Positions 47,901 to 57,556 of a stretch of 64,000 nt of DNA are shown here, piece after piece. Numbering within the stretch: position 1 is the stretch's first letter; every line of letters starts with the position of its first letter. Origin of the DNA: Phaeobacter porticola (lineage in GTDB: Bacteria; Pseudomonadota; Alphaproteobacteria; Rhodobacterales; Rhodobacteraceae); assembly GCF_001888185.1 (NCBI RefSeq), contig NZ_CP016364.1, positions 744,001 through 808,000 on the forward strand. The letters run 5' to 3'. The notes below the pieces were generated by a model that was not told the origin of the DNA, did not search any database, and saw only the letters and a program-made list of their open reading frames with translations. A program made the position numbers and the translations under genes.

Positions 47901-48220
47901 TTGCGGCGGGCCAGATCCTGCAAGGTGGCAAGCCCGTAGGACCAGTAGCTTTCGCCGCCGATAAGACGCACAAGGACGCCCTTGGCGCCCTCCAGTGTCT
48001 GTTCGGCGTAGACGTCCACCGACAGGGGGTGTTTCAGCGCCACCAGATTGGCGAGCCTCAGCGAGGGCAGCCGGTCCTTGCCGCGATGCCAGCCTGCCGC
48101 AAAGGCCCCGAGATCGCTGTCAGAAAACGACAGCACCACAAGATCCGCAGGCGTCTGCCCCAGATCCTGTGGTGTATCACTCTCATCAAGGCCGTGGCTT
48201 TCGCGGAAGACGACATGCAT
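44975..48220 (-). CDS. cobN: Cobaltochelatase large subunit, CobN
   Basis: A 1081-residue ATP-dependent cobaltochelatase subunit that, with CobS and CobT (not in this window), inserts Co(II) into hydrogenobyrinate a,c-diamide. It has the CobN/BchH layout: a long N-terminal region, a central HIGAHGTLEWLPGKSVALS motif, and GNRxxLHIFG-like and DLWGSATMRTAGEEFAMAL segments. It is shorter than the roughly 1275-residue Pseudomonas denitrificans protein. The ORF is intact from ATG 48220 with no frameshift seen. Confidence 0.92.
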   Translation of the reverse strand: MHVVFRESHGLDESDTPQDLGQTPADLVVLSFSDSDLGAFAAGWHRGKDRLPSLRLANLVALKHPLSVDVYAEQTLEGAKGVLVRLIGGESYWSYGLATLQDLARRKGIALAILPADGREDPRLDELSTLPVSTLRRLQHLCDSGGAVAAQAALAQLSLAAGLYAGPVTGLKSVPQYGCYDPNRGVLAELPEQDKPLVLVSFYRSYLTAADTGPVDALIGELRGRGYAAYGVFAASLKAPEAADWLRSALPDLAPAAIINATAFSAQGSDGSASPLSTTGCPVFQVALSTARRKDWAEADRGLSPADLAMHVVLPEVDGRIFAGLVSFKAPGKKDPDLQYSRFAHRADMDRVKAAVDRIEGWLRLAQLPNHDKRLALVLSTYPGRDHNLAHAVGLDALASCDEILRELWDQGYVVEPQENTGLRLMEERLSLPLQDYKTALATLPQDLQNTLTAAWGQPEEDPDCRDGAFHFKALRAGKALIALQPERGEVKTRVDDYHDLDRTPRHAYVAFYMWLRSQSDAIVHIGAHGTLEWLPGKSVALSAACWPEVLTGPLPVAYPFIVNDPGEAAQAKRRIGAVTLGHLPPPLAQTNLPDGMARLESLLDEYSTADGLDPARRDRLIDSIRTEAQGTGVEADLGLTPNSCAAEAITRIDAFVCDIKESQYGEGLHIFGTGQCGADERAGLIAALNGQMVAPGPSGSPFRGRADVIPTGRNLFTTDPRAVPSRAAQAQGVKLAEELLRRHLQDHGDWPKGLVIDLWGSATMRTAGEEFAMALHLAGLAPKWDEGSERVSGFEVLPLSMLNRPRIDVTLRVSGLFRDVFPGLAQMFETAAAALAAREESAADNPYLIETPRVFGPKPGQYGLSMNPHLDDYTDEARAAAGEAWLNASSHAIDAKGDIHDAREALEARLQTTDSFVHLQDLPETDLLVASDYAAHEAGFAAAMARIGQKAPALYHMDATRPDKPQARSLGEEIARVTRARAANPDWATSMMNHGFRGAAEIAATLDHMAAFAHLAQVVQPHLFDLYFEATLGREDLVEFMSGENPDALQAMRDRFRALFDAGLWSTRRNSIMAELEGAV

Positions 48221-48329
48221 GGGTCAGGCCTTTACATTCTGGCAGGCGGTGGGCGCTCTCAGGGTCGGGCGCAGCCCGGCCTGCGACCGGGCGATGTCAT
48301 TAGAAACAAGACGCCAGACCAGCATAGCT

Positions 48330-49409
48330 TCAGGCCCCCAGCTCGGCGCGGATCGCCTCGGCGTCGATATTGTCATGCTCGGCGATGATCACGAGAACGG
48401 TCTTGCGCGCCTGTGCGCCCCAGGGCTGGTCATATTGCGCGCGCAGGCGTTCCCCCACGGCCTGAACGAGCATACGCATCGGTTTTCCTTCCACCGCAAC
48501 ATAGCCTTTGACGCGCAGGATATTACGCTCGCGGGCGAGTTTCACGATGGCATCCTGCAACACTTGCGGATCGGAGACTTCGCCCATTTCGACCACGATT
48601 GTATCAAAATCGTCATGGCTGTGGTCATGATCATGATGGTGGTGATCGTCGCCATGGTCATCGTCGTGGTGGTGATGATGCTCGTGGTGCGAGGGGCGCG
48701 CATCCAGATCGTCTTCGGCGGCGGCCTCAAGCCCCAGAATGACACGCGGGTCGATCACGCCTTCGGACATCGACAGGATCGGCAGTTTGCGCGGTGCTTC
48801 GGCCTCGATCATGGTGCGGGCCTTGTCCAGACCCTCCTCACCGGCGAGATCGGCCTTGGACAACAGGATGATATCGGCGCAGGAGATCTGATCCTTGAAC
48901 AGCTCCGACAGCGGGGTTTCATGGTCGATGCCTTCGTCGGCCTCGCGCTGGGCCTGCACCGCCTCCAGATCGGTGGCGAACTGACCTTTGGCGACCGCTT
49001 CGGCATCGGCCAGCGCAACCACGCCATCCACGGTGATGCGCGACCGGATCGCGGGCCATTCAAACGCCTTCAGAAGCGGTTTCGGCAGCGCCAGACCAGA
49101 GGTTTCGATCACGATGTGATCGGGTTTTTCCGGCAGGTTCATCAGCTGTTCGATGGTGGGGATGAAATCATCGGCCACGGTGCAGCAGATACAGCCATTG
49201 GCCAGTTCCATGATGTTCTCTGCCGGGCAGTTTTCATCGGCGCAGGATTTGAGGATTTCGCCGTCCACACCCGCGGTGCCAAACTCATTGACCACGACGG
49301 CCAGACGCTTGCCCTGCGGGTTCTGCATCAGGTGGCGGATCAGGGTGGTTTTGCCCGCACCAAGGAAGCCGGTGATAACGGTGACGGGGATTTTATTCAG
49401 GTCGCTCAT
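48330..49409 (-). CDS. cobW: CobW-type COG0523 G3E GTPase metallochaperone
   Basis: A 359-residue GTPase: P-loop VITGFLGAGKTTLIRHLM, the ELANGCICCTVADDF CxCC metal site, and a GTP-binding SKADL. A His/Asp-rich loop spans about residues 236-266, a likely metal reservoir. CobW_C follows. In cobalamin operons CobW is thought to deliver Co(II) to the CobN chelatase. The ATG at 49409 gives the family N-terminus; a longer frame to 49544 has none. About 110 bases separate it from cobN. Confidence 0.93.
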   Translation of the reverse strand: MSDLNKIPVTVITGFLGAGKTTLIRHLMQNPQGKRLAVVVNEFGTAGVDGEILKSCADENCPAENIMELANGCICCTVADDFIPTIEQLMNLPEKPDHIVIETSGLALPKPLLKAFEWPAIRSRITVDGVVALADAEAVAKGQFATDLEAVQAQREADEGIDHETPLSELFKDQISCADIILLSKADLAGEEGLDKARTMIEAEAPRKLPILSMSEGVIDPRVILGLEAAAEDDLDARPSHHEHHHHHDDDHGDDHHHHDHDHSHDDFDTIVVEMGEVSDPQVLQDAIVKLARERNILRVKGYVAVEGKPMRMLVQAVGERLRAQYDQPWGAQARKTVLVIIAEHDNIDAEAIRAELGA

Positions 49410-49413
49410 GGGG

Positions 49414-49815
49414 TCAATCCTTGGACAACGATGGAGGAGTGGAAGGCGCCGCCACAGGTGCGGGCGGAATGCGGGCGATGGATTGCTTGCGGAACACCAC
49501 GGGGCGTTCGCGCCAGGGCACCAGACCATCCGTGGTGGCGGCATAGGCGGCAGCGCCGGTCAGGATGTCGGGCACATGTTCGTCGGGATCAAGATCGCCG
49601 TAGATGTAGCTCCAGCGGGCGTCGCCGCCGCTCAGCACCATGGAGCAGCCACGGGTGCAGGCCGACAGGCATTCGACACCGCGCACCGCAACGCCCTCCG
49701 GCAGATCGGCGTCTTGCAGGGCGGCCAGCATGCGGGCGCCGGGGCGCGGGGCCTCCGGGTCGGTCACCTCGCCGCGACGGCAGGTGGTGCAGATCGTCAG
49801 TGTTACCTCGGCCAT
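49414..49815 (-). CDS. DUF1636 thioredoxin-like [2Fe-2S]-type protein
   Basis: A 133-residue protein with an N-terminal CTTCRRGE and a downstream VECLSACTRGCSMVL, the four-plus cysteine set of DUF1636, which resembles thioredoxin-fold [2Fe-2S] ferredoxins. It heads the cob operon directly below the riboswitch, four bases before cobW. A redox or metal-delivery role in corrin-ring synthesis is inferred. The C-terminal tail is proline-rich and not conserved. Confidence 0.83.
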   Translation of the reverse strand: MAEVTLTICTTCRRGEVTDPEAPRPGARMLAALQDADLPEGVAVRGVECLSACTRGCSMVLSGGDARWSYIYGDLDPDEHVPDILTGAAAYAATTDGLVPWRERPVVFRKQSIARIPPAPVAAPSTPPSLSKD

Positions 49816-49929
49816 GAGCGCCCTTCACTTGGTTCCAGCGAGGGGGCTGCGAGCCAGCGGGGGCGCGAAGATCGCGCAGGTATCCCAGCCAGTCGCGGAA
49901 CACCCCGTCCGCCCGTTGCGTTTCTTTTG

Positions 49930-50115
49930 TTGGCAGGTCTCCCGGCTTGCGGATGCCAAGGCTTGGGGCCTTGACGGTCATCCTGCCTTCCCGAGTTTCC
50001 TCAGTGGCATCGGAGACCTCTCCGGTCACGGTCGCGGGGGCGGCTGTGCTTGGCCGGACCCTGATGGCCCAACTGTCACATTCCCTCTTCGCCTGCCAAA
50101 TGGCAGGAACCAACA
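49930..50115 (-). promoter_or_regulatory. Cobalamin (AdoCbl) riboswitch leading the cob operon
   Basis: On the minus strand the leader shows GTTGGTTCCTGCC, GAGGGAAT, CAGCCGCCCCCGCGACCGT, GATGCCACTG, and the terminal CAAGCCGGGAGACCTGCC. These are the conserved blocks of the AdoCbl riboswitch. It ends about 115 bases before the DUF1636 start and should control the whole DUF1636-to-cobA run. The spacer 50116-50179 also holds the divergent cobO promoter. Confidence 0.9.
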
Positions 50116-50179
50116 AAACCCCCTTGCGCCATTGCCCCTGTCTTTGTCAAGACATGGGCGAACCAGTAGGAGAGCCCCC

Positions 50180-50815
50180 ATGAGCGATACGCCCGAGACC
50201 GACATTTCCGAAGCAGAAGCGGCACGCCATGCGGCGAAGATGGCCAAGAAGAAGGCCGCCCGCGACCGCATGATGCAAAACAAGGACGGCGAGAAAGGAC
50301 TGATCATCGTCCACACCGGCCCGGGCAAGGGCAAATCCAGCTCTGGTTTCGGCATGATCATGCGCTGCATTGCCCATAAAATGCCCTCAGCTGTGGTGCA
50401 GTTCATCAAGGGCGCCTGGCAGACCGGCGAACGGACGCTGATCGAAGAAAACTTCAGCGATTTGTGCCAGTTTTACGCAATGGGCGAAGGCTTTACCTGG
50501 GAGACCCAGGACAAGGCCCGCGATATTGCCGCCGCGCAAAAGGGCTGGGAAAAGGCCAAGGAGATGATCCGCGACGAGCGCAACACTATGGTGCTCTTGG
50601 ATGAGATCAACATTGCCCTGCGTTATGACTATATCGACATTGCAGATGTGGTGGAGTTTCTGGAAACCGAAAAGCCGCCGATGACCCATGTGGTGCTGAC
50701 TGGCCGCAATGCCAAGGAAGAGTTGATCGAGATCGCCGATCTGGTCACCGAAATGGGCCAGATCAAACACCCTTTCCGCGACGGCATCAAAGCCCAGAAG
50801 GGCGTGGAGTTCTGA
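50180..50815 (+). CDS. cobO: Cob(I)yrinic acid a,c-diamide adenosyltransferase, CobO
   Basis: A 211-residue enzyme transferring the 5'-deoxyadenosyl group from ATP to Co(I) corrinoid. It has a lysine/alanine-rich N-terminus, the ATP site IVHTGPGKGKSSSGFGMIM, the VVQFIKGAW strand and LLDEINIALRYDYI. The ATG at 50180 follows AGGAGAGC. It is divergent from the cob operon across the riboswitch region. A terminator-like hairpin follows. Confidence 0.95.
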   Translation: MSDTPETDISEAEAARHAAKMAKKKAARDRMMQNKDGEKGLIIVHTGPGKGKSSSGFGMIMRCIAHKMPSAVVQFIKGAWQTGERTLIEENFSDLCQFYAMGEGFTWETQDKARDIAAAQKGWEKAKEMIRDERNTMVLLDEINIALRYDYIDIADVVEFLETEKPPMTHVVLTGRNAKEELIEIADLVTEMGQIKHPFRDGIKAQKGVEF

Positions 50816-50820
50816 TCATT

Positions 50821-50875
50821 TGAGGTGATCAAAAAGAATGCTGGAAAGCCCCTGCAGGTTGCTGCGGAGGCTTTT
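50821..50875 (+). repeat. 55-base direct repeat copy A (terminator-like), after cobO
   Basis: This copy and the 55-base copy at 52292-52346 are identical at 42 of 55 positions by my count. Both end in a GC stem with a CTTTT tail. In copy A the stem from 50845 pairs AAAGCC...TGCAG with CTGC...GGCTTT and acts as the likely cobO terminator. Confidence 0.7.
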
Positions 50876-51049
50876 CGCCAAGTTTCTTTGGCGGCGCCTG
50901 TGGGCAGCGGCGCTTGGCCAAAAGCGTGCCAGAGCGATGCCCTCTGAACCATGCCCTGGGGATGTTCGTGGCAATTGTCAGGATTTTCTTCCGCGTATTT
51001 ACGGGAGTGTAACGCGATAGGTATAGGCCCGTTACCTACACAAGTAGGG

Positions 51050-52294
51050 ATGGGAAAGCATTTGACGTTCATGGACAGCCGGATCGAAGCGCGTCCGCTT
51101 AGGGGAGAGGCTCCCTTTGCGCTAAATGAAGTATTCTACTCCAGAACGGATAGCCGCGGGGTTATTCAGATTGGTAACGAGATCTTCCGACGGGTGTCAG
51201 ACTTTGCATGGGATGATCTTATCGGTGCCCCACATAAGATCATTCGCCACGAAGACATGCCACGGGGGGTGTTCCAGCTGTTCTGGGAGATCCTCGGCAA
51301 CGGCGACTTCTTCGGCGGATACATAAAAAACAAGTCCCGCGATGGGTTGTATTACTGGGTTTTTGCCGTCGTTGTGCCTTGCGAAGATGGGTTTCTTTCG
51401 GCGCGGATCAAACCGACAAGCAAGCTGTTTGACAAGGTCGCGCAGGGCTATGCGGATTTGCTGAAAGAGGAGCAGGAGGGCGGGCTTAGCCCTGAGGAAA
51501 GCCGCGATAGACTGCTGGCCTGGTGTGTTGATCTGGGGTTCGAGAACTACGAACAGTTCGCGGCCAATGCGCTGGCAGATGAGCTGATGGCCCGCGATCA
51601 GGGGCTGGAGCAGGCGCCGGACCTTTCGATTGAAAGGCTGCGGACCATGCTTGCAAACTCGGATGTGCTGGCAGAAGAAACCCGTGGTCTGATCGACGAC
51701 TTTGCGGCGATGCGCACCATTCCCCATAACCTGCGGGTTCTAGCGTCCCGGATTGAACCGTCGGGTGGCCCGGTTACCGTGCTTTCGCAGAACTACGGGT
51801 CCATTTCGCAGGAGATGTCGAACTGGTTTGCTACGCATGTTCTGGGAAAGGACAGCAATTTCTCCAAGATCAAGGGGCAGGTGAGTCAGAGCCTGTTCGT
51901 CGCAGGCGTAGTGCGTATTTTTGCTGAGTGTAACAAGCAGCTTCAGCGTGAGAATCATGCCGTTCTGGACGAGGAAGGCCGTGCACATGAACAATCGCTG
52001 TTGCGGGCGTTGGCCGTGGTGCAGGAAGAACATGCCCGAACACAGTTGTCGGATGTGAACCGCGAGGCAGAGCGCATTACCAAAATTTGCGAAACCATGC
52101 AGCGCCAGCTGTTGGGGCTGAGTTCGACGCGGGTGTTGTGTAAAATCGAAAGCGCGCGGCTTCCCGAGGATGGTCACTCGCTCTCTGACATCATCGACCA
52201 GCTGGGACGTTTCCAGCAGCGTATCTCGCAGCGGCTTCAGCACATTAGCAATCTTTGTTCCAACGATCCCAAGCCCGCAGATCAGCCATCCTGA
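51050..52294 (+). CDS. PAS-domain sensory protein without output domain
   Basis: About 414 residues. The N-terminal PAS domain resembles that of aerotaxis receptors: SRTDSRGVIQIGNEIFRRVS, IRHEDMPRGVFQLFW and KNKSRDGLYYWVFAVVVP. The rest is helical with long coiled coils (LLRALAVVQEEHARTQLSDVN). There is no membrane segment and no chemoreceptor signalling hairpin, kinase or GGDEF domain. The start is uncertain: ATG 51050, TTG 51062 or ATG 51071. Function unknown; a cytoplasmic redox or oxygen sensor is inferred. Confidence 0.75.
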   Translation: MGKHLTFMDSRIEARPLRGEAPFALNEVFYSRTDSRGVIQIGNEIFRRVSDFAWDDLIGAPHKIIRHEDMPRGVFQLFWEILGNGDFFGGYIKNKSRDGLYYWVFAVVVPCEDGFLSARIKPTSKLFDKVAQGYADLLKEEQEGGLSPEESRDRLLAWCVDLGFENYEQFAANALADELMARDQGLEQAPDLSIERLRTMLANSDVLAEETRGLIDDFAAMRTIPHNLRVLASRIEPSGGPVTVLSQNYGSISQEMSNWFATHVLGKDSNFSKIKGQVSQSLFVAGVVRIFAECNKQLQRENHAVLDEEGRAHEQSLLRALAVVQEEHARTQLSDVNREAERITKICETMQRQLLGLSSTRVLCKIESARLPEDGHSLSDIIDQLGRFQQRISQRLQHISNLCSNDPKPADQPS

Positions 52295-52346
52295 GGTAAT
52301 CAGAAAGAACGGCGGAAAGCCCCCGCAAGGATTTGCAGGGGCTTTT
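52292..52346 (+). repeat. 55-base direct repeat copy B, with Rho-independent terminator
   Basis: This copy begins at the stop codon of the PAS gene. Its second half, 52316-52346, is a good terminator: AAAGCCCC-GCAA pairs with TTGC-GGGGCTTT, followed by T residues. Similarity to copy A extends upstream of the stem into TGAGGTxATCAxAAAGAA. Confidence 0.75.
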
Positions 52347-52444
52347 ATCATGAGGGGAGTGGATGGAAAAAATCTCTCCTTCCCAGAATTGACTGGATGA
52401 ACGATGCGCGCAATCATGCACTTTTTGGTTGTATGGATTGTATT

Positions 52445-53803
52445 ATGTCAGAAGAACTCCCAGAATTTCTCACACAAGGGGAACAGGCTCGTTTATTTCC
52501 CGTGCTTTCAACAACATCGAAAGAGGGGCGAACGACTTCGATTGTTTTGGCTTGTTTGGCAAAGGTGGATGAATTCGGAGCAAGTCTGCTTGCGAGCCTT
52601 GGGCAGCGAGTTGGCGTTCGATCTAAGATTGAAACCTACACTGAAGTCGTCTGTACAAATCGCGCGTCGGATCAAAAGGATAGACCTGACGGCTTGATTG
52701 TCATGCGAACAGGGAGCCGTGAGTGGCGCGCCTTGGTTGAAGCCAAAGTGGGATCAAACAATCTTGATGCTGACCAGATCGAAAAATATCGACAATTGGC
52801 CAAAGATAATGAGATCGACTGTGTGATTTCCATATCAAATCAATTTGCAACAACCCCTTCCACGCATCCGGTATCCGAAGTCAACAAAAGCCGATCTAAG
52901 ATTCCGGTCTATCATTGGTCATGGATGCACATTCTTACCGAAGTGGATCTTTTACTGAGCCGCAATTCCGTATCAGATATGGATCAGCGCGTGCTTTTAA
53001 ATGAGTTGAGGCGCTTTCTGACTCATGAAAGTGCAGGCGTGAAGGGGTTTGATCGTATGCCCAAGGAGTGGGGCGAGCTAAATAAGCTCGTATCCAGTGG
53101 GGGTATCATAACTGCAAAATCGGCAGATGCTCATGCGGTTATCACGGCATGGCATCAGGAAACACGCGACTTGTCTTTGATCCTTAGTCGGATGACGGAA
53201 GCCTATGTCGCGGAACGGTTGCCAAGGAAATATCTGTCAGATGGGGCGCTGCGTTTCAAAGATGAGCTGAACTTCTTAAGAGAAAATCGCCAGCTACATG
53301 CAGAACTGGATGTCCCAGATGCCGCAGCACCAATCAAAGTTGTAGTAGATATTAGTCGACGAAGCGTTGATGTCGGGATGGTTTTGCGTGCGCCAGAAGA
53401 CAAGGTTTCGACTAGGGCGCGGGTCAATTGGATCTTGCGGCAGGTTAAGGCGGACAAGCAAGAAGACTTGTACCTGAGGCTTATGTGGCCAGGGAAATCG
53501 GAGCCTACTCAACATCTGGTTTCTGATTTAAAAGAAAATTCTGATGCAGCAGCTAAAGGGAAAGATCAGCTTTCCCCACATAGCTTCTTTATATTTAGGT
53601 CCAAGCAGCTCGGAGCACGTTTCGCGCAGCAGGCAAATTTCATCATCGACTTAGAAGAAATGGTTCCGGCCTACTATCGTGATGTAGGAGCAAATTTGTC
53701 AGCGTGGCAGAAGAGAGCACCAAGGATCAAAGAGGATCGATCAACCGCGGAAGATGTGACTACGGAGGCGATTTCTGAGGACGCCCAGAACTATGATGTC
53801 TAG
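52445..53803 (+). CDS. Low-GC accessory protein with PD-(D/E)XK nuclease-like domain
   Basis: A 452-residue protein not recognised as a named family. Near residues 80-120 it has PDGLIV (D82), ALVEAKV (E99, K101) and DADQIEKYRQLA (Q111), the D...ExK plus helix-Q pattern of PD-(D/E)XK nucleases. The rest is mixed alpha/beta with no membrane segment. Three sampled 60-base rows hold 25, 30 and 23 G/C, against 42 in a row from neighbouring glpD, so recent transfer is likely. It stands alone behind a terminator. ATG 52445 is chosen; ATG 52397 is possible. A defence or DNA-processing role is inferred. Confidence 0.7.
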   Translation: MSEELPEFLTQGEQARLFPVLSTTSKEGRTTSIVLACLAKVDEFGASLLASLGQRVGVRSKIETYTEVVCTNRASDQKDRPDGLIVMRTGSREWRALVEAKVGSNNLDADQIEKYRQLAKDNEIDCVISISNQFATTPSTHPVSEVNKSRSKIPVYHWSWMHILTEVDLLLSRNSVSDMDQRVLLNELRRFLTHESAGVKGFDRMPKEWGELNKLVSSGGIITAKSADAHAVITAWHQETRDLSLILSRMTEAYVAERLPRKYLSDGALRFKDELNFLRENRQLHAELDVPDAAAPIKVVVDISRRSVDVGMVLRAPEDKVSTRARVNWILRQVKADKQEDLYLRLMWPGKSEPTQHLVSDLKENSDAAAKGKDQLSPHSFFIFRSKQLGARFAQQANFIIDLEEMVPAYYRDVGANLSAWQKRAPRIKEDRSTAEDVTTEAISEDAQNYDV

Positions 53804-53937
53804 CCACCTCAGACAACGTCAGCCTTTCTGACCAAATGTTTTGCGTGCGAAACAATCAGGCAGGGGGGCTGATACTTTTTGTGGGCGTTGCGCGGGGTGC
53901 GGGCGCATAGGGGTTGGATGTGTTGCAGGCGGGTTAA

Positions 53938-53966
53938 GGCGCCGGGGCCTGAAATGGCCCGGCACC
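53938..53966 (-). terminator. Terminator-like hairpin after glpD
   Basis: On the minus strand GGTGCCGGGCC pairs with GGCCCCGGCGCC, with one bulge and an ATTTCA loop. Only two T residues follow, so the termination strength is doubtful. Confidence 0.5.
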
Positions 53967-53987
53967 CACCCGTCCCAGAGACCGCAC

Positions 53988-55577
53988 TCAGGCGGCCAGA
54001 TCTGCGGCCTTGCTGCGGATGTACGTGTCGACCGCCGCGCGCTCTTCCTCGCTCAGACGCAGGGCCAGTTTGGTGCGGCGCAGCAGGTAATCCTCGCCGG
54101 TGCGGACCCATTCGTGGGCGATGGTCCAGTCAAGTTCACGGGCGGTGATGGTGGCGCCGAAGTCCTGGCCGAGATCGGCGGCTGTGGTGGCTTGGCCCAG
54201 CACGTCCCAGGCCTCTGTCCCATAGGCGCGGATCAGGCGACGGGTCGCGTAAGGGCTGAGGAACGGATAGTCCTGCGCCAGTTTCGCGGTCAGTTTTGCC
54301 ACGTCTCCGACCGGGAAATCACCGCCGGGCAGGGCAACGCCTGCGGTCCAGTCGGCGGGCAGATCGGGGAACACGGTTGCGATCTTCTCCAGCGCGGCCT
54401 CGGCCAGTTTGCGATAGGTGGTGATCTTGCCGCCAAAGACATTCAGCAGCGGCGCGGCGCTGTCGTTCAGGGTCAGCACATATTCGCGGGTGGCGGCGGT
54501 GGCAGAGCTGGCGCCATCGTCATAAAGCGGGCGCACGCCGGAATAGGTCCAGACGATATCGTCACGGCTGAGCGGATTGGCGAAATACTGCGAGGCGAAA
54601 TTGATCAGGTAATCCTGTTCCTCGGGCGTGCAGGTCGGGGCGGTCTGCGGGTCGGGGTGGTCGGCGTCAGTGGTGCCGATCAGCGTGTAGTCTTCCTCAT
54701 AGGGGATGGCGAAGATGATGCGCCCGTCGGTGCCCTGAAAGAAGTAGCAGCGCCCGTGATCATAGAGTTTCGGGACCACGATATGGCTGCCGCGCACAAG
54801 ACGGACGCTTTCGCGGCTGTTCTGGCCCAGCTTCTGACGCAGCACATCTGCCACCCAGGGACCGCCGGCATTCACCAGCATCTTGGCACGGCGCTGCGAG
54901 GTTTCGCCCGTGGTGATGTCTTCAAGGTCAATCACCCAGTGGTCCGCGTTGCGGGTGGCGCCGGTCACTTTGGTGCGGGTCATGATTTCGGCGCCGCGGG
55001 CCTCGGCGTCGCGGGCATTCAGCACCACCAGCCGTGCGTCTTCGATCCAGCAGTCGGAATATTCAAAAGCGGTCTTGAACTTCGGATCCAGCGGGCGGCC
55101 GGCGGGATCGCTGGCGAGATCCAGTTTGGAGGTGCCGGGAAGGATGCCGCGTTTGCCGAGGCTGTCGTACATGAACAGGCCAAGACGGATCAGCCAAGCC
55201 GGACGCCGACCCTTCATCCACGGCATGATGGTGGTCAGCAGTTTTGACGTCGGCGTGGTGTTGTCAAAGCGCATGTCCTTATGAAACGGCAGCACAAAGC
55301 GCATTGGCCAGGAGATATGCGGCATCGCTTTCAACAGCACCTCGCGTTCGATCAGCGCCTCACGCACCAGCCGGAATTCGAAGTATTCAAGATAGCGCAA
55401 TCCGCCGTGAAACAGCTTGGTCGAGGCGGAGGAGGTGGCGGAGGCAAGATCGTTCATCTCAGCCAGCGCCACGGACAGGCCCCGCCCTGCGGCGTCGCGG
55501 GCGATGCCGCAACCATTGATGCCGCCGCCGATGATGAAAAGATCGGTGATTTGGTCTTGAGCGTTTGTGTTAGACAT
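53988..55577 (-). CDS. glpD: Glycerol-3-phosphate dehydrogenase, aerobic FAD-type (GlpD)
   Basis: A 529-residue membrane-peripheral flavoenzyme that oxidises sn-glycerol 3-phosphate to DHAP and feeds the quinone pool. FAD site: LFIIGGGINGCGIARDAAGR. Also present are ATSSASTKLFHGGLRYLEYF, GVRPLYDD and the DAO C-terminal domain ending AAVDTYIRSKAADLAA. The ATG at 55577 overlaps the end of glpR by eight bases, so the two are translationally coupled. The same frame stays open upstream through glpR but in a nonsense reading. Confidence 0.94.
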   Translation of the reverse strand: MSNTNAQDQITDLFIIGGGINGCGIARDAAGRGLSVALAEMNDLASATSSASTKLFHGGLRYLEYFEFRLVREALIEREVLLKAMPHISWPMRFVLPFHKDMRFDNTTPTSKLLTTIMPWMKGRRPAWLIRLGLFMYDSLGKRGILPGTSKLDLASDPAGRPLDPKFKTAFEYSDCWIEDARLVVLNARDAEARGAEIMTRTKVTGATRNADHWVIDLEDITTGETSQRRAKMLVNAGGPWVADVLRQKLGQNSRESVRLVRGSHIVVPKLYDHGRCYFFQGTDGRIIFAIPYEEDYTLIGTTDADHPDPQTAPTCTPEEQDYLINFASQYFANPLSRDDIVWTYSGVRPLYDDGASSATAATREYVLTLNDSAAPLLNVFGGKITTYRKLAEAALEKIATVFPDLPADWTAGVALPGGDFPVGDVAKLTAKLAQDYPFLSPYATRRLIRAYGTEAWDVLGQATTAADLGQDFGATITARELDWTIAHEWVRTGEDYLLRRTKLALRLSEEERAAVDTYIRSKAADLAA

Positions 55578-56355
55578 TTTCGCTACTTTCGTTTTCGCCA
55601 ACCCAGAGGATTTGCGTGCCTGCGGCCTTTGCCGCGCGGGAAAATTCAGCGGGGACGGGGCGGTCGGTGACCACCACGTCGAGATCGGAGATATCGCAGA
55701 TGCGGACCGGGGCGGTGCGCTCGAACTTGCTGCCGTCGCAGACAAGCACGCGCTTGCGGGCGTTTTTGAGGATGGCGCGGGCGACGGAGACTTCACGCGC
55801 ATCATGGTCAAGAATGGCGCCGTCTGCGTCCATGGCCGAGGCGCCGATGACAGCGATATCAACCTTGTAACGGGCAATGAATTCCAGCGCGTCCTCGCCG
55901 ACGATGGCGCCGTCGCTTTGCCGGATGGCCCCGCCGACAAGTACCAGTTCCTTGCTCTCATCCTCCATCATCATATTGATAATATTGATATTGTTAGACA
56001 GAACAGTGAGGCCGCGATGGCCTGAAAGGGCGCGGGCGACCTGTTCGGTGGAGGTGCCGATATTGAGCGTGATGGCGCAGTTGTCAGGGATCAGATCAGC
56101 GGCGAGCGCGGCCATGGCGCGTTTGCCGCGGGCATTCAGCTTGCGCCGTTCGGCATAGTCGCGGCTGGCGCCACTGCTGCTGCGCACCGCACCACCATGC
56201 ACGCGGGAGAGCGCGCCACGGGCAGCCAGATCGCGCAGGTCGGTGCGGATGGTTTGCAGCGAGACGCCAAAGCGCTGCGCGAGATCCTCGACCTCGACCC
56301 GGTCCTGTCGGGTCAGCAGGTCCAGAATGGCGGCCTGTCTGTCGCTTGCGTCCAT
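55570..56355 (-). CDS. glpR: DeoR-family regulator GlpR
   Basis: A 261-residue repressor. The N-terminal DeoR winged helix has RQAAILDLLTRQDRVEVEDL and VSLQTIRTDLRDLAARGAL. The effector domain has INIGTSTEQVARAL and DADGAILDHDAREVSVARAI, as in GlpR proteins that bind glycerol 3-phosphate. It heads the glpR-glpD operon. It probably represses its own operon, but no operator was identified in the 94 bases upstream. Confidence 0.9.
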   Translation of the reverse strand: MDASDRQAAILDLLTRQDRVEVEDLAQRFGVSLQTIRTDLRDLAARGALSRVHGGAVRSSSGASRDYAERRKLNARGKRAMAALAADLIPDNCAITLNIGTSTEQVARALSGHRGLTVLSNNINIINMMMEDESKELVLVGGAIRQSDGAIVGEDALEFIARYKVDIAVIGASAMDADGAILDHDAREVSVARAILKNARKRVLVCDGSKFERTAPVRICDISDLDVVVTDRPVPAEFSRAAKAAGTQILWVGENESSENV

Positions 56356-56449
56356 GGGAGATCCTTTCGCAGGCCTATCTAGGCCTCTGGTTGCGAGAAG
56401 TCACGGATTATTTTCGTTTCGCTTTCGTTTCGCTTTTTTGACTGGCTGA

Positions 56450-57556
56450 TCAGGCGATCGGAATCAGATGGTTGTCCCAGGCGAGATCTGTGCGGGCCCG
56501 GATGTGCGACGGACGATCAGCTTGGCTGGTGCTCAGCTGTGCCAGCAGCCCCTGACCGGTGGTGACAACAAAGCCATCCGCGTCACTGGCCAGCCCGCAG
56601 ACATCCGTGAGGCGAAGTTCCCGCAGCAGCGCGCCGGTGGTGCAATCGGCGATCTGCACCACACCACCGCGCGGGGAGGTGACGGCGATCTGTGTTCCAT
56701 CGCAGGAAAAGGCGACGGAGCCGCCATAGCCGTTGAGGTTGCGCAGGCGGGGGTCATCCTCGGCCATCAGGCGGGGGGCAGAGCCGGGATTGTGCAGACC
56801 GATGATCGGCAGGTCCGCGCCCGCGTCGCCCTGCCACTGCATTGCAAAACCAACAGTCCCTGTGGCGCTGATGGCAAGGTGGCGGATCGAGTTCAGGCGC
56901 ATATCGGCGTTCAGGATCAGCTGATCCTGCAGGGTGCCCTCAAGGCTGAGGTAGCTGAGGTTGGGTTGCATGGTGGCGAGGTTCAGCTTTGCGCGGCCGC
57001 TGTCGGGGTGGGTCTGAATGCCGCCGTTGGCCACCACCAGATTGTGCTGGCCGTCAGGGCTGGTGCGCAGCTTGATATCATGCGGGCCAATGCCGCCGGA
57101 GGCATGATCGCCAATCCGGCGGTAGCCGTCGCTGGCGTCCCAGATGCCGATGCGGCCGTCGCCGCTTTCAAAGGCGTTTTCGGTGGTGAAGAGAGACCTG
57201 CCGTCCGGGGAGAATACGCCATGGCCATAGAAGTGATGTCCGGGTGGCGGGGTGAGCCGGGCCAGGGCCGCACCGGTGCGGCAGTCGATCACATCCGCGA
57301 ACTGTCCGGGGCGGCGGGCAAAGGCGACCGCCTCCGGGCGGGTCGGGTGCGCGGTTGCGGCATGGCCCCGGGCGGGCAGGGCGTGGCGGAACAGGATGGC
57401 GCCGGTGCGGTCCAGACCCGCGAGGAGGAAGCTGCCATCGGGGGATTTACCCGCCGAGAGATAGGCAGGGTGGCCAAGGTCGGCCCAGCTGGCCTGCGGC
57501 GCCATGCCTGCGGCCAGAAGACCGGCAAGAAACCCGCGACGGGAGGGGCCTGCCAT
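56450..57556 (-). CDS. DUF1513 family Tat-exported beta-propeller-like protein
   Basis: A 368-residue protein with a Tat signal (SRRGFLAGLLAAGMA). The mature part is DUF1513: repeated YLSAGKSPDGSFLLAGLD, GHGVFSPDGRSLFTTENAF, NLVVANGGIQTHPDSGR and FSCDGTQIAVTSPRGG blades. This is usually the last gene of imelysin/DUF1111 groups thought to respond to iron. The ATG at 57556 is preferred because it gives the Tat signal. It lies four bases after the imelysin-like gene. Biochemical role unknown. Confidence 0.86.
   Translation of the reverse strand: MAGPSRRGFLAGLLAAGMAPQASWADLGHPAYLSAGKSPDGSFLLAGLDRTGAILFRHALPARGHAATAHPTRPEAVAFARRPGQFADVIDCRTGAALARLTPPPGHHFYGHGVFSPDGRSLFTTENAFESGDGRIGIWDASDGYRRIGDHASGGIGPHDIKLRTSPDGQHNLVVANGGIQTHPDSGRAKLNLATMQPNLSYLSLEGTLQDQLILNADMRLNSIRHLAISATGTVGFAMQWQGDAGADLPIIGLHNPGSAPRLMAEDDPRLRNLNGYGGSVAFSCDGTQIAVTSPRGGVVQIADCTTGALLRELRLTDVCGLASDADGFVVTTGQGLLAQLSTSQADRPSHIRARTDLAWDNHLIPIA

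Follow-up and report, generated by a model that had tools for sequence, protein, structure and literature searches.

The gene at positions 52,445 to 53,803 of a 64,000-nucleotide stretch of the Phaeobacter porticola genome (contig NZ_CP016364.1, positions 744,001 to 808,000; hereafter the window) encodes a predicted nuclease. It was inserted as a single gene; its homologues are carried by a phage contig, satellite-like islands and plasmids; and it has no recurrent partner. Because the gene moves alone, on phages, on satellite-like islands and beside anti-phage systems, it is probably a one-gene phage defense. We favor the reading that it is a stand-alone, horizontally mobile, predicted nuclease that protects the cell, a resident prophage or a satellite against phage or other foreign DNA, and we infer the defense role as such to be likely.

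Mobility of the gene and the breadth of its family

That the gene is mobile is close to certain. In a genus-mate (G075; genomes are labeled G and loci L), blastn aligns the DNA on both sides of the gene to window positions 48,001-52,296 at 87.8% and 53,813-56,481 at 88.6%, and the segment between is missing (Table 1). This empty site supports the single-gene insertion that a preliminary description of the window had suggested. No target-site duplication was seen at the insertion; complementary 7-mers (CTGAGGT and ACCTCAG) lie at the segment's edges (52,291-52,297 and 53,806-53,812), probably by chance.

The identity of the copies runs against kinship. Three genus-mates (G075, G675 and G676) carry family copies 61-62% identical to the window gene at another place, with glpD genes 94, 98 and 98% identical to that of the window, and the copy on a viral contig is 87% identical to the window gene. 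A second roseobacter place lacks the gene in G000, G677, G678 and G679, holds about 1-1.9 kb of other DNA instead, and is not a clean empty site. The interval between btuR and glpD (window 50,815-53,988) is itself a variable gene slot across seven genomes of the genus. It contains a PAS protein and the window gene here, the PAS protein alone in G075, a pair of small glyoxalase-like genes beside an HxlR-like regulator in three others (G675, G676 and G678), one SDR-like gene in G677 (these names were given by eye), and an 80% identical copy of the window gene plus other DNA in G679.

Composition and decay tell of the same mobility. Among the 49 window open reading frames (ORFs) of at least 150 aa called by a greedy script, the gene has the lowest guanine-plus-cytosine (GC) content, at 48.2% vs a mean of 61.2% (standard deviation 3.9, the gene included), and its third-position GC is 47.1% vs a mean of 69.6% (standard deviation 6.0). 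Across the family, 45 of 48 loci have a copy with lower GC than its flanks, and in 28 of the 48 the copy has the lowest GC content among ORFs of 200 aa or more; eight of 56 loci were left out of this count (seven near-duplicates or actinobacterial copies and one with too little flank). Of the 52 carrier genomes in the pooled family, class, genus and phylum samples, 8 or more have a broken copy: IS3-type insertions disrupt the copies of G123 and G452, internal stops or splits those of G066, G167, G277 and G402, and short matches are all that remains in G240 and G833. The partial copies of G417, G794 and G920 were kept out of this count for possible contig-edge effects, as was that of G592, whose C-terminal match contains a stop that another reading of the same copy lacks.

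Relatives were found with a single-sequence query in 20 of 295 genomes of the same bacterial family and in five of seven genomes of the genus, and with a profile query in 22 of 385 genomes of the class and 11 of 398 of the phylum; these samples include the window's own genome, partly overlap and differ in query, and are not strictly comparable. Nine loci were found among genome contigs, and three IMG/VR contigs carry relatives, as do 11 plasmid records (six from Streptomyces, five from Rhodococcus; 27-33% identity), ten of them annotated "TerD family protein" and one unannotated. A search of phage records returned no relative, and in scans of viral contigs one relative (L036) retrieved itself alone and another (L010) retrieved none.

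Sporadic presence, the empty site and a GC content below that of the flanks together show that inheritance is not uniformly vertical, in keeping with the inserted gene of the preliminary description. That description had read 25, 30 and 23 G+C of 60 in three rows of the gene and 42 of 60 in neighboring glpD; we counted 25, 29 and 23, and 41 in a glpD row. It had also set the gene between a terminator and glpD. The glpD-type gene does lie downstream, on the opposite strand, and is presumably rightly named (the name follows the earlier label and recognition of the sequence); the inverted repeat upstream (Table 1) is a plausible terminator and no firmer than that, because a consensus scan of the forward strand, which listed other weak sites, omits it.

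Domain architecture and comparison with known systems

The reading frame has an alternative start at 52,397, which would give 468 aa; relatives at 87-88% identity begin MSEELPEF, as the 452-aa version does. AlphaFold models built from shallow alignments (9 and 13 rows) predict a restriction endonuclease (REase) fold with the core given in Table 1, and the nuclease fold is very well supported. Both the predicted core fold and the D...(D/E)XK residues would place the protein in the PD-(D/E)XK superfamily. The preliminary nuclease reading, which had picked out D82, E99, K101 and Q111, is thereby borne out, with those residues at the positions it gave and near-invariant in relatives. Of 67 members and fragments, the 62 that reach at least 300 aa supply the counts in Table 1; 59 cover the catalytic columns and three do not. 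The sole K101R belongs to a copy that runs to its contig end (L103), E67 is kept in 57 of 59 sequences and E27 in 57 of the 58 covering it, and D82, E99, K101 and Q111 are invariant in a 26-row alignment. We take the QxxxY motif to be of RecB/Cas4 type, and infer that the predicted nuclease cuts DNA, probably in a metal-dependent manner. The ratio of nonsynonymous to synonymous substitution rates (dN/dS) is 0.035 between relatives L002 and L035, the only pair for which it was obtained, synonymous sites being saturated in all comparisons with the window copy (window vs L035: proportions of nonsynonymous and synonymous differences, 0.078 and 0.78).

Table 1. Coordinates, strand and characteristics of the gene, its predicted parts and its surroundings in the window
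Feature	Position	Strand	Remark
Nuclease-family protein coding sequence	52445..53803	+	452 aa plus stop, frame open; start backed by relatives' matching N-terminus
N-terminal PD-(D/E)XK (restriction-endonuclease-like) domain, predicted	52520..52960	+	Residues about 26-172, alpha-beta-beta-beta-alpha-beta order
D82 codon, predicted catalytic Asp of PD motif	52688..52690	+	Kept in 59/59 covering relatives
E99-A-K101 codons, (D/E)XK motif	52739..52747	+	E99 in 59/59, K101 in 58/59
Q111-xxx-Y115 codons, QxxxY motif	52775..52789	+	Q111 in 59/59; Y115 in 58/60 covering
C-terminal domain	53048..53710	+	Residues about 202-422, DUF1054/YbjN/type III-chaperone-like predicted fold
Segment missing from syntenic place in genus-mate G075	52297..53812	.	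130 bp of other sequence there (blastn)
Inverted repeat, 13-nt arms, ending CTTTT, terminator-like	52316..52345	+	Upstream of gene, within inserted segment
Left neighbor, PAS-domain protein	50951..52294	+	PF08447; counterpart DNA in G075, none in that interval of the other five genus-mates
Right neighbor, glpD-type glycerol-3-phosphate dehydrogenase	53988..55577	-	In 7/7 genus genomes, identity >=85%

The roughly 330 C-terminal residues described earlier as lacking a recognized domain do lack one by sequence, but have a recognizable predicted fold. In structure lists for this part, chaperone-like folds (DUF1054, YbjN and type III chaperone) rank first, although such lists exclude nothing; 3mqz is a DUF1054 structure by its title, and we take 2a8e to be another. 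The likeness to DUF1054 and YbjN/AmyR is one of predicted fold and does not extend to the sequence profile: neither profile matched the window protein in Pfam up to E 1, and a profile search of Protein Data Bank (PDB) sequences gave unrelated weak matches only. Profiles of the N- and C-terminal parts match the identical 22 of 385 genomes, and in the sampled genomes the C-terminal domain always accompanies the nuclease domain. It is the less conserved of the two, with a mean pairwise identity of 39.5% vs 47.2% over 57 sequences and the N-terminal part ahead in 1441 of 1596 pairs, which might fit a sensor domain, other causes being possible. A chaperone-like fold binds polypeptide in known cases. 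In predicted antiviral systems that include REases as well, domains of this fold have been proposed to bind peptides (PMC9503650), and the YbjN-family protein AmyR is thought to work through protein-protein contacts (PMC5398634).

The window protein has no Pfam or NCBIfam match, none among the 5027 PADLOC models (2023 set) up to E 10 with HMMER filters on, none in the PDB by sequence, and one in PHROGs at E 0.37, which we treat as chance. No TerD-nuclease or chaperone-nuclease defense protein like this family was found described in the literature titles and abstract openings surveyed. Neither the family nor its pairing of domains nor the branch fused to TerD was found in the libraries covered or in those titles and openings; single-protein PD-(D/E)XK defense itself is already known, Shedu being an example. 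Shedu is included in PADLOC-DB, no model of which (SduA among them) matches the window protein; it carries its extra domain N-terminally where the window protein carries its nuclease, and the second domains differ in predicted fold. PaqCI, AspBHI, MspJI and FokI have no detectable sequence similarity to the window protein, whose C-terminal part matched other folds. Comparable are the TY-chaperone (type III secretion/YbjN) systems of PMC9503650, which likewise join a chaperone-like fold with an REase-fold nuclease in a conflict setting, but as separate genes around an ADP-ribosylglycohydrolase, whereas the present family is one protein with no recurrent neighbor.

Phage, satellite-like and defense neighborhoods

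The gene seems to act alone, because no neighbor cluster recurs in more than five of 54 loci, a count on which a conserved operon was also rejected. The neighbor genes come from a script that greedily takes the longest ORF, so some are spurious. Cluster c9 is gyrB/parE; cluster c1 was considered as a transposase and rejected, its members looking by eye like ABC-transporter ATPases.

Phage surroundings are seen in an IMG/VR contig (L035), where a terminase large subunit (PF03354, E 4.5e-29) lies two small genes downstream, and a contig from a metagenome-assembled genome (MAG; L002) has the same upstream genes. In L010 the family gene lies between a gene transfer agent (GTA)/phage-tail gene (PF13547, E 2.5e-66) and a DUF2793 gene; this locus (L010/L087), from a Rickettsiales MAG, has the family gene on the opposite strand and a tail gene of GTA type (GTA_TIM, Rcc01698_C).

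Transfer RNA genes are also close by. Of the 12 found in 50 loci, five are on the strand of the family gene and no more than 400 bp upstream of it, in stretches amounting to 4.7% of bases (p 1.4e-4, with the 400-bp limit set after inspection of the data). Two of these loci, L007 and L070, share one layout: the tRNA-Ser gene is followed by the family gene, then by a P4/CP4-type integrase, and beyond it the last 14 nt of the tRNA recur exactly; the integrases match integrase chains (phmmer E 8e-19 and 2e-22) and are 72% identical to each other. L007 also has a small excisionase-like gene, recognized by eye. These tRNA-Ser islands (L007:9741-14998 and L070:3367-10779), roughly 5 and 7 kb long, are possible roseobacter phage satellites; in both, the tRNA is followed by the family gene before any other gene of appreciable size. 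The other three tRNA-adjacent loci have no tRNA-end repeat, and no relatives of the two integrases occur in other loci of the neighbor set. The tRNA, integrase and att repeat of P4-like satellite cargo are thus seen for L007 and L070 but not for the window copy; an integrase-motif scan found nothing in the window, a silence that means little because both known integrases escaped it too.

These settings make it quite possible that the gene serves superinfection exclusion to the benefit of a prophage or satellite, its chromosomal copies being stranded cargo, a reading that overlaps the favored one and differs from it in who benefits. The closest relatives (87-88% identity) are those on the terminase-bearing viral contig and the MAG contig that shares its upstream genes, two islands have P4/CP4-type integrases, and phages and P4-like satellites are known hotspots of antiviral genes (PMC9122126). 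Yet phage genes or such integrases were recognized in few loci, no systematic search for phage genes having been made, and relatives occur on just three IMG/VR contigs.

Known defense genes stand beside several copies. ZorA (E 2.5e-147) abuts the family gene in L009, where a ZorB match is taken as the gene after it (ZorA alone was scanned singly). Within two genes of at least 120 aa lie a PDC-S37 helicase in L005 (E 0), a phospholipase effector of the type found in cyclic-oligonucleotide-based anti-phage signaling systems (CBASS) in L004 (E 4.6e-149) and an SNF2 helicase in L093 (E 7.7e-51); one UzuA, one PD-T7-4 and a mads_3 match are also in the near set. An RTasSbcB match beside L093 was rejected, the protein looking by eye like an ordinary SbcB exonuclease. 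At E 1e-45, a threshold chosen post hoc with the data already seen, about seven of 174 near genes (52 loci) match defense families vs none of 113 distant genes (42 loci), the best distant match being PDC-S07 at 3.7e-42 (Fisher p 0.03, or 0.07 without genes over 1000 aa). The figure of seven assumes that each matched family is a separate gene; the comparison covers the best 25 of 39 and of 50 families near the gene, and of 35 at distance. Before scanning, 21 of 195 neighbors were left out, most of them syntenic duplicates or ORFs that were very long or cut. Neighbor families are otherwise mostly metabolic or housekeeping (among the best 25 of 87 and of 114).

A further branch is found on actinobacterial plasmids. 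All three copies scanned carry an N-terminal TerD domain (PF02342, E 1e-49 to 2e-43) in the order TerD, nuclease, C-terminal domain, and TerD-fused copies are annotated "response to stress"; the window protein has no TerD domain in a Pfam scan, and the aligned proteobacterial relatives lack the extension. Four plasmid contexts were read for defense genes. Two Rhodococcus plasmids, pLP337 and pRZP3, carry a CD-NTase-like gene (phmmer to 9sa4, E 7e-13, for the pLP337 copy; the pRZP3 copy is similar by eye), together with a ThiF/Cap2-like gene (7tsq, E 7e-6, for pLP337, where other E1-like enzymes match better), a JAB gene and DUF6602. Standing in a row (L138:9285-13136 and L136:5294-9151), these genes resemble a type II CBASS-like cluster with DUF6602 at the putative effector position. 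On pRZP3 they directly follow the TerD-fused copy; on pLP337 they are three to six genes away from it. AbiE and SIR2 genes are near the copy on pLP337 and RES genes near those on pRZP3 and pR8L1; no defense gene is annotated on the fourth context, a Streptomyces plasmid, or on two further Streptomyces plasmids. On two Rhodococcus plasmids (L136:2905-5243 and L137:3680-6018), the TerD-fused copy is directly preceded by a pair of conserved hypothetical genes of 366 and 413 aa, the 366-aa one with a glycine-rich hydrophobic stretch; they are possible operon partners there. One conserved Rhodococcus neighbor was compared with PDB sequences and had no match. A link between Ter genes and phage inhibition has been reported (PMC8123226).

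Alternative functions and a proposed mechanism

We consider it unlikely that the protein is a horizontally spread stress or repair nuclease that processes damaged or broken host DNA, with the TerD fusion as a chemical-stress response. PD-(D/E)XK enzymes bearing QxxxY include repair exonucleases, the actinobacterial fusion carries its stress annotation, and the neighbor families are mostly housekeeping among the matches listed. In addition, the YbjN-fold protein DR1245 is a partner of the SSB-like repair protein DdrB (PMC3575483). For a repair gene, however, presence in 3-7% of sampled genomes, the frequency of broken copies, and the company of a terminase-bearing viral contig, satellite-like islands and Zorya- and CBASS-like neighbors would all be unusual.

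Less likely still is type IV-like, modification-dependent restriction, in which the C-terminal part reads modified phage bases and the N-terminal part cuts: chaperone-like folds come first in the structure lists, though these exclude nothing, and PADLOC has no match to the window protein. A toxin-like selfish gene with no defense role would account for mobility, sporadic presence and disruption in some genomes, but is very improbable given the lack of a recurrent neighbor fit as antitoxin (five of 54 loci at most) and the strong purifying selection in the sole measurable pair (L002-L035).

Returning to the defensive nuclease that we favor, its self/non-self discrimination is unlikely to come from classical restriction-modification, because no methyltransferase lies beside the window gene and the family has no recurrent partner; type II restriction-modification was rejected on the same neighborhood, the window gene being flanked by PAS and glpD-type genes. 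Activation, modified-base sensing or DNA-end sensing must then supply the discrimination, and of these activation is preferred. The simplest account is that the C-terminal domain restrains or guides the nuclease. This domain would hold the nuclease in check or recruit it, and an encounter with an infection-specific protein would release the nuclease; in the actinobacterial branch, the added N-terminal TerD domain may provide a second sensory or tethering input. That the C-terminal domain senses an infection cue is a conjecture, and a doubtful one.

We tentatively propose, then, a possible single-protein immune family in which a chaperone-like domain would sense a phage polypeptide and switch on the nuclease, with TerD as a second trigger in actinobacteria. 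If this is true, Pseudomonadota and actinobacterial plasmids would share a widely scattered one-gene defense family unmatched by the 2023 PADLOC models, with a sensor-like domain in one chain with a nuclease, a pairing not found described in the titles and abstract openings at hand. The TerD fusion would likewise offer a concrete handle on the link between Ter genes and phage inhibition. The gene is small, seemingly free of partners, and has clear catalytic-dead controls, which makes the question directly testable.
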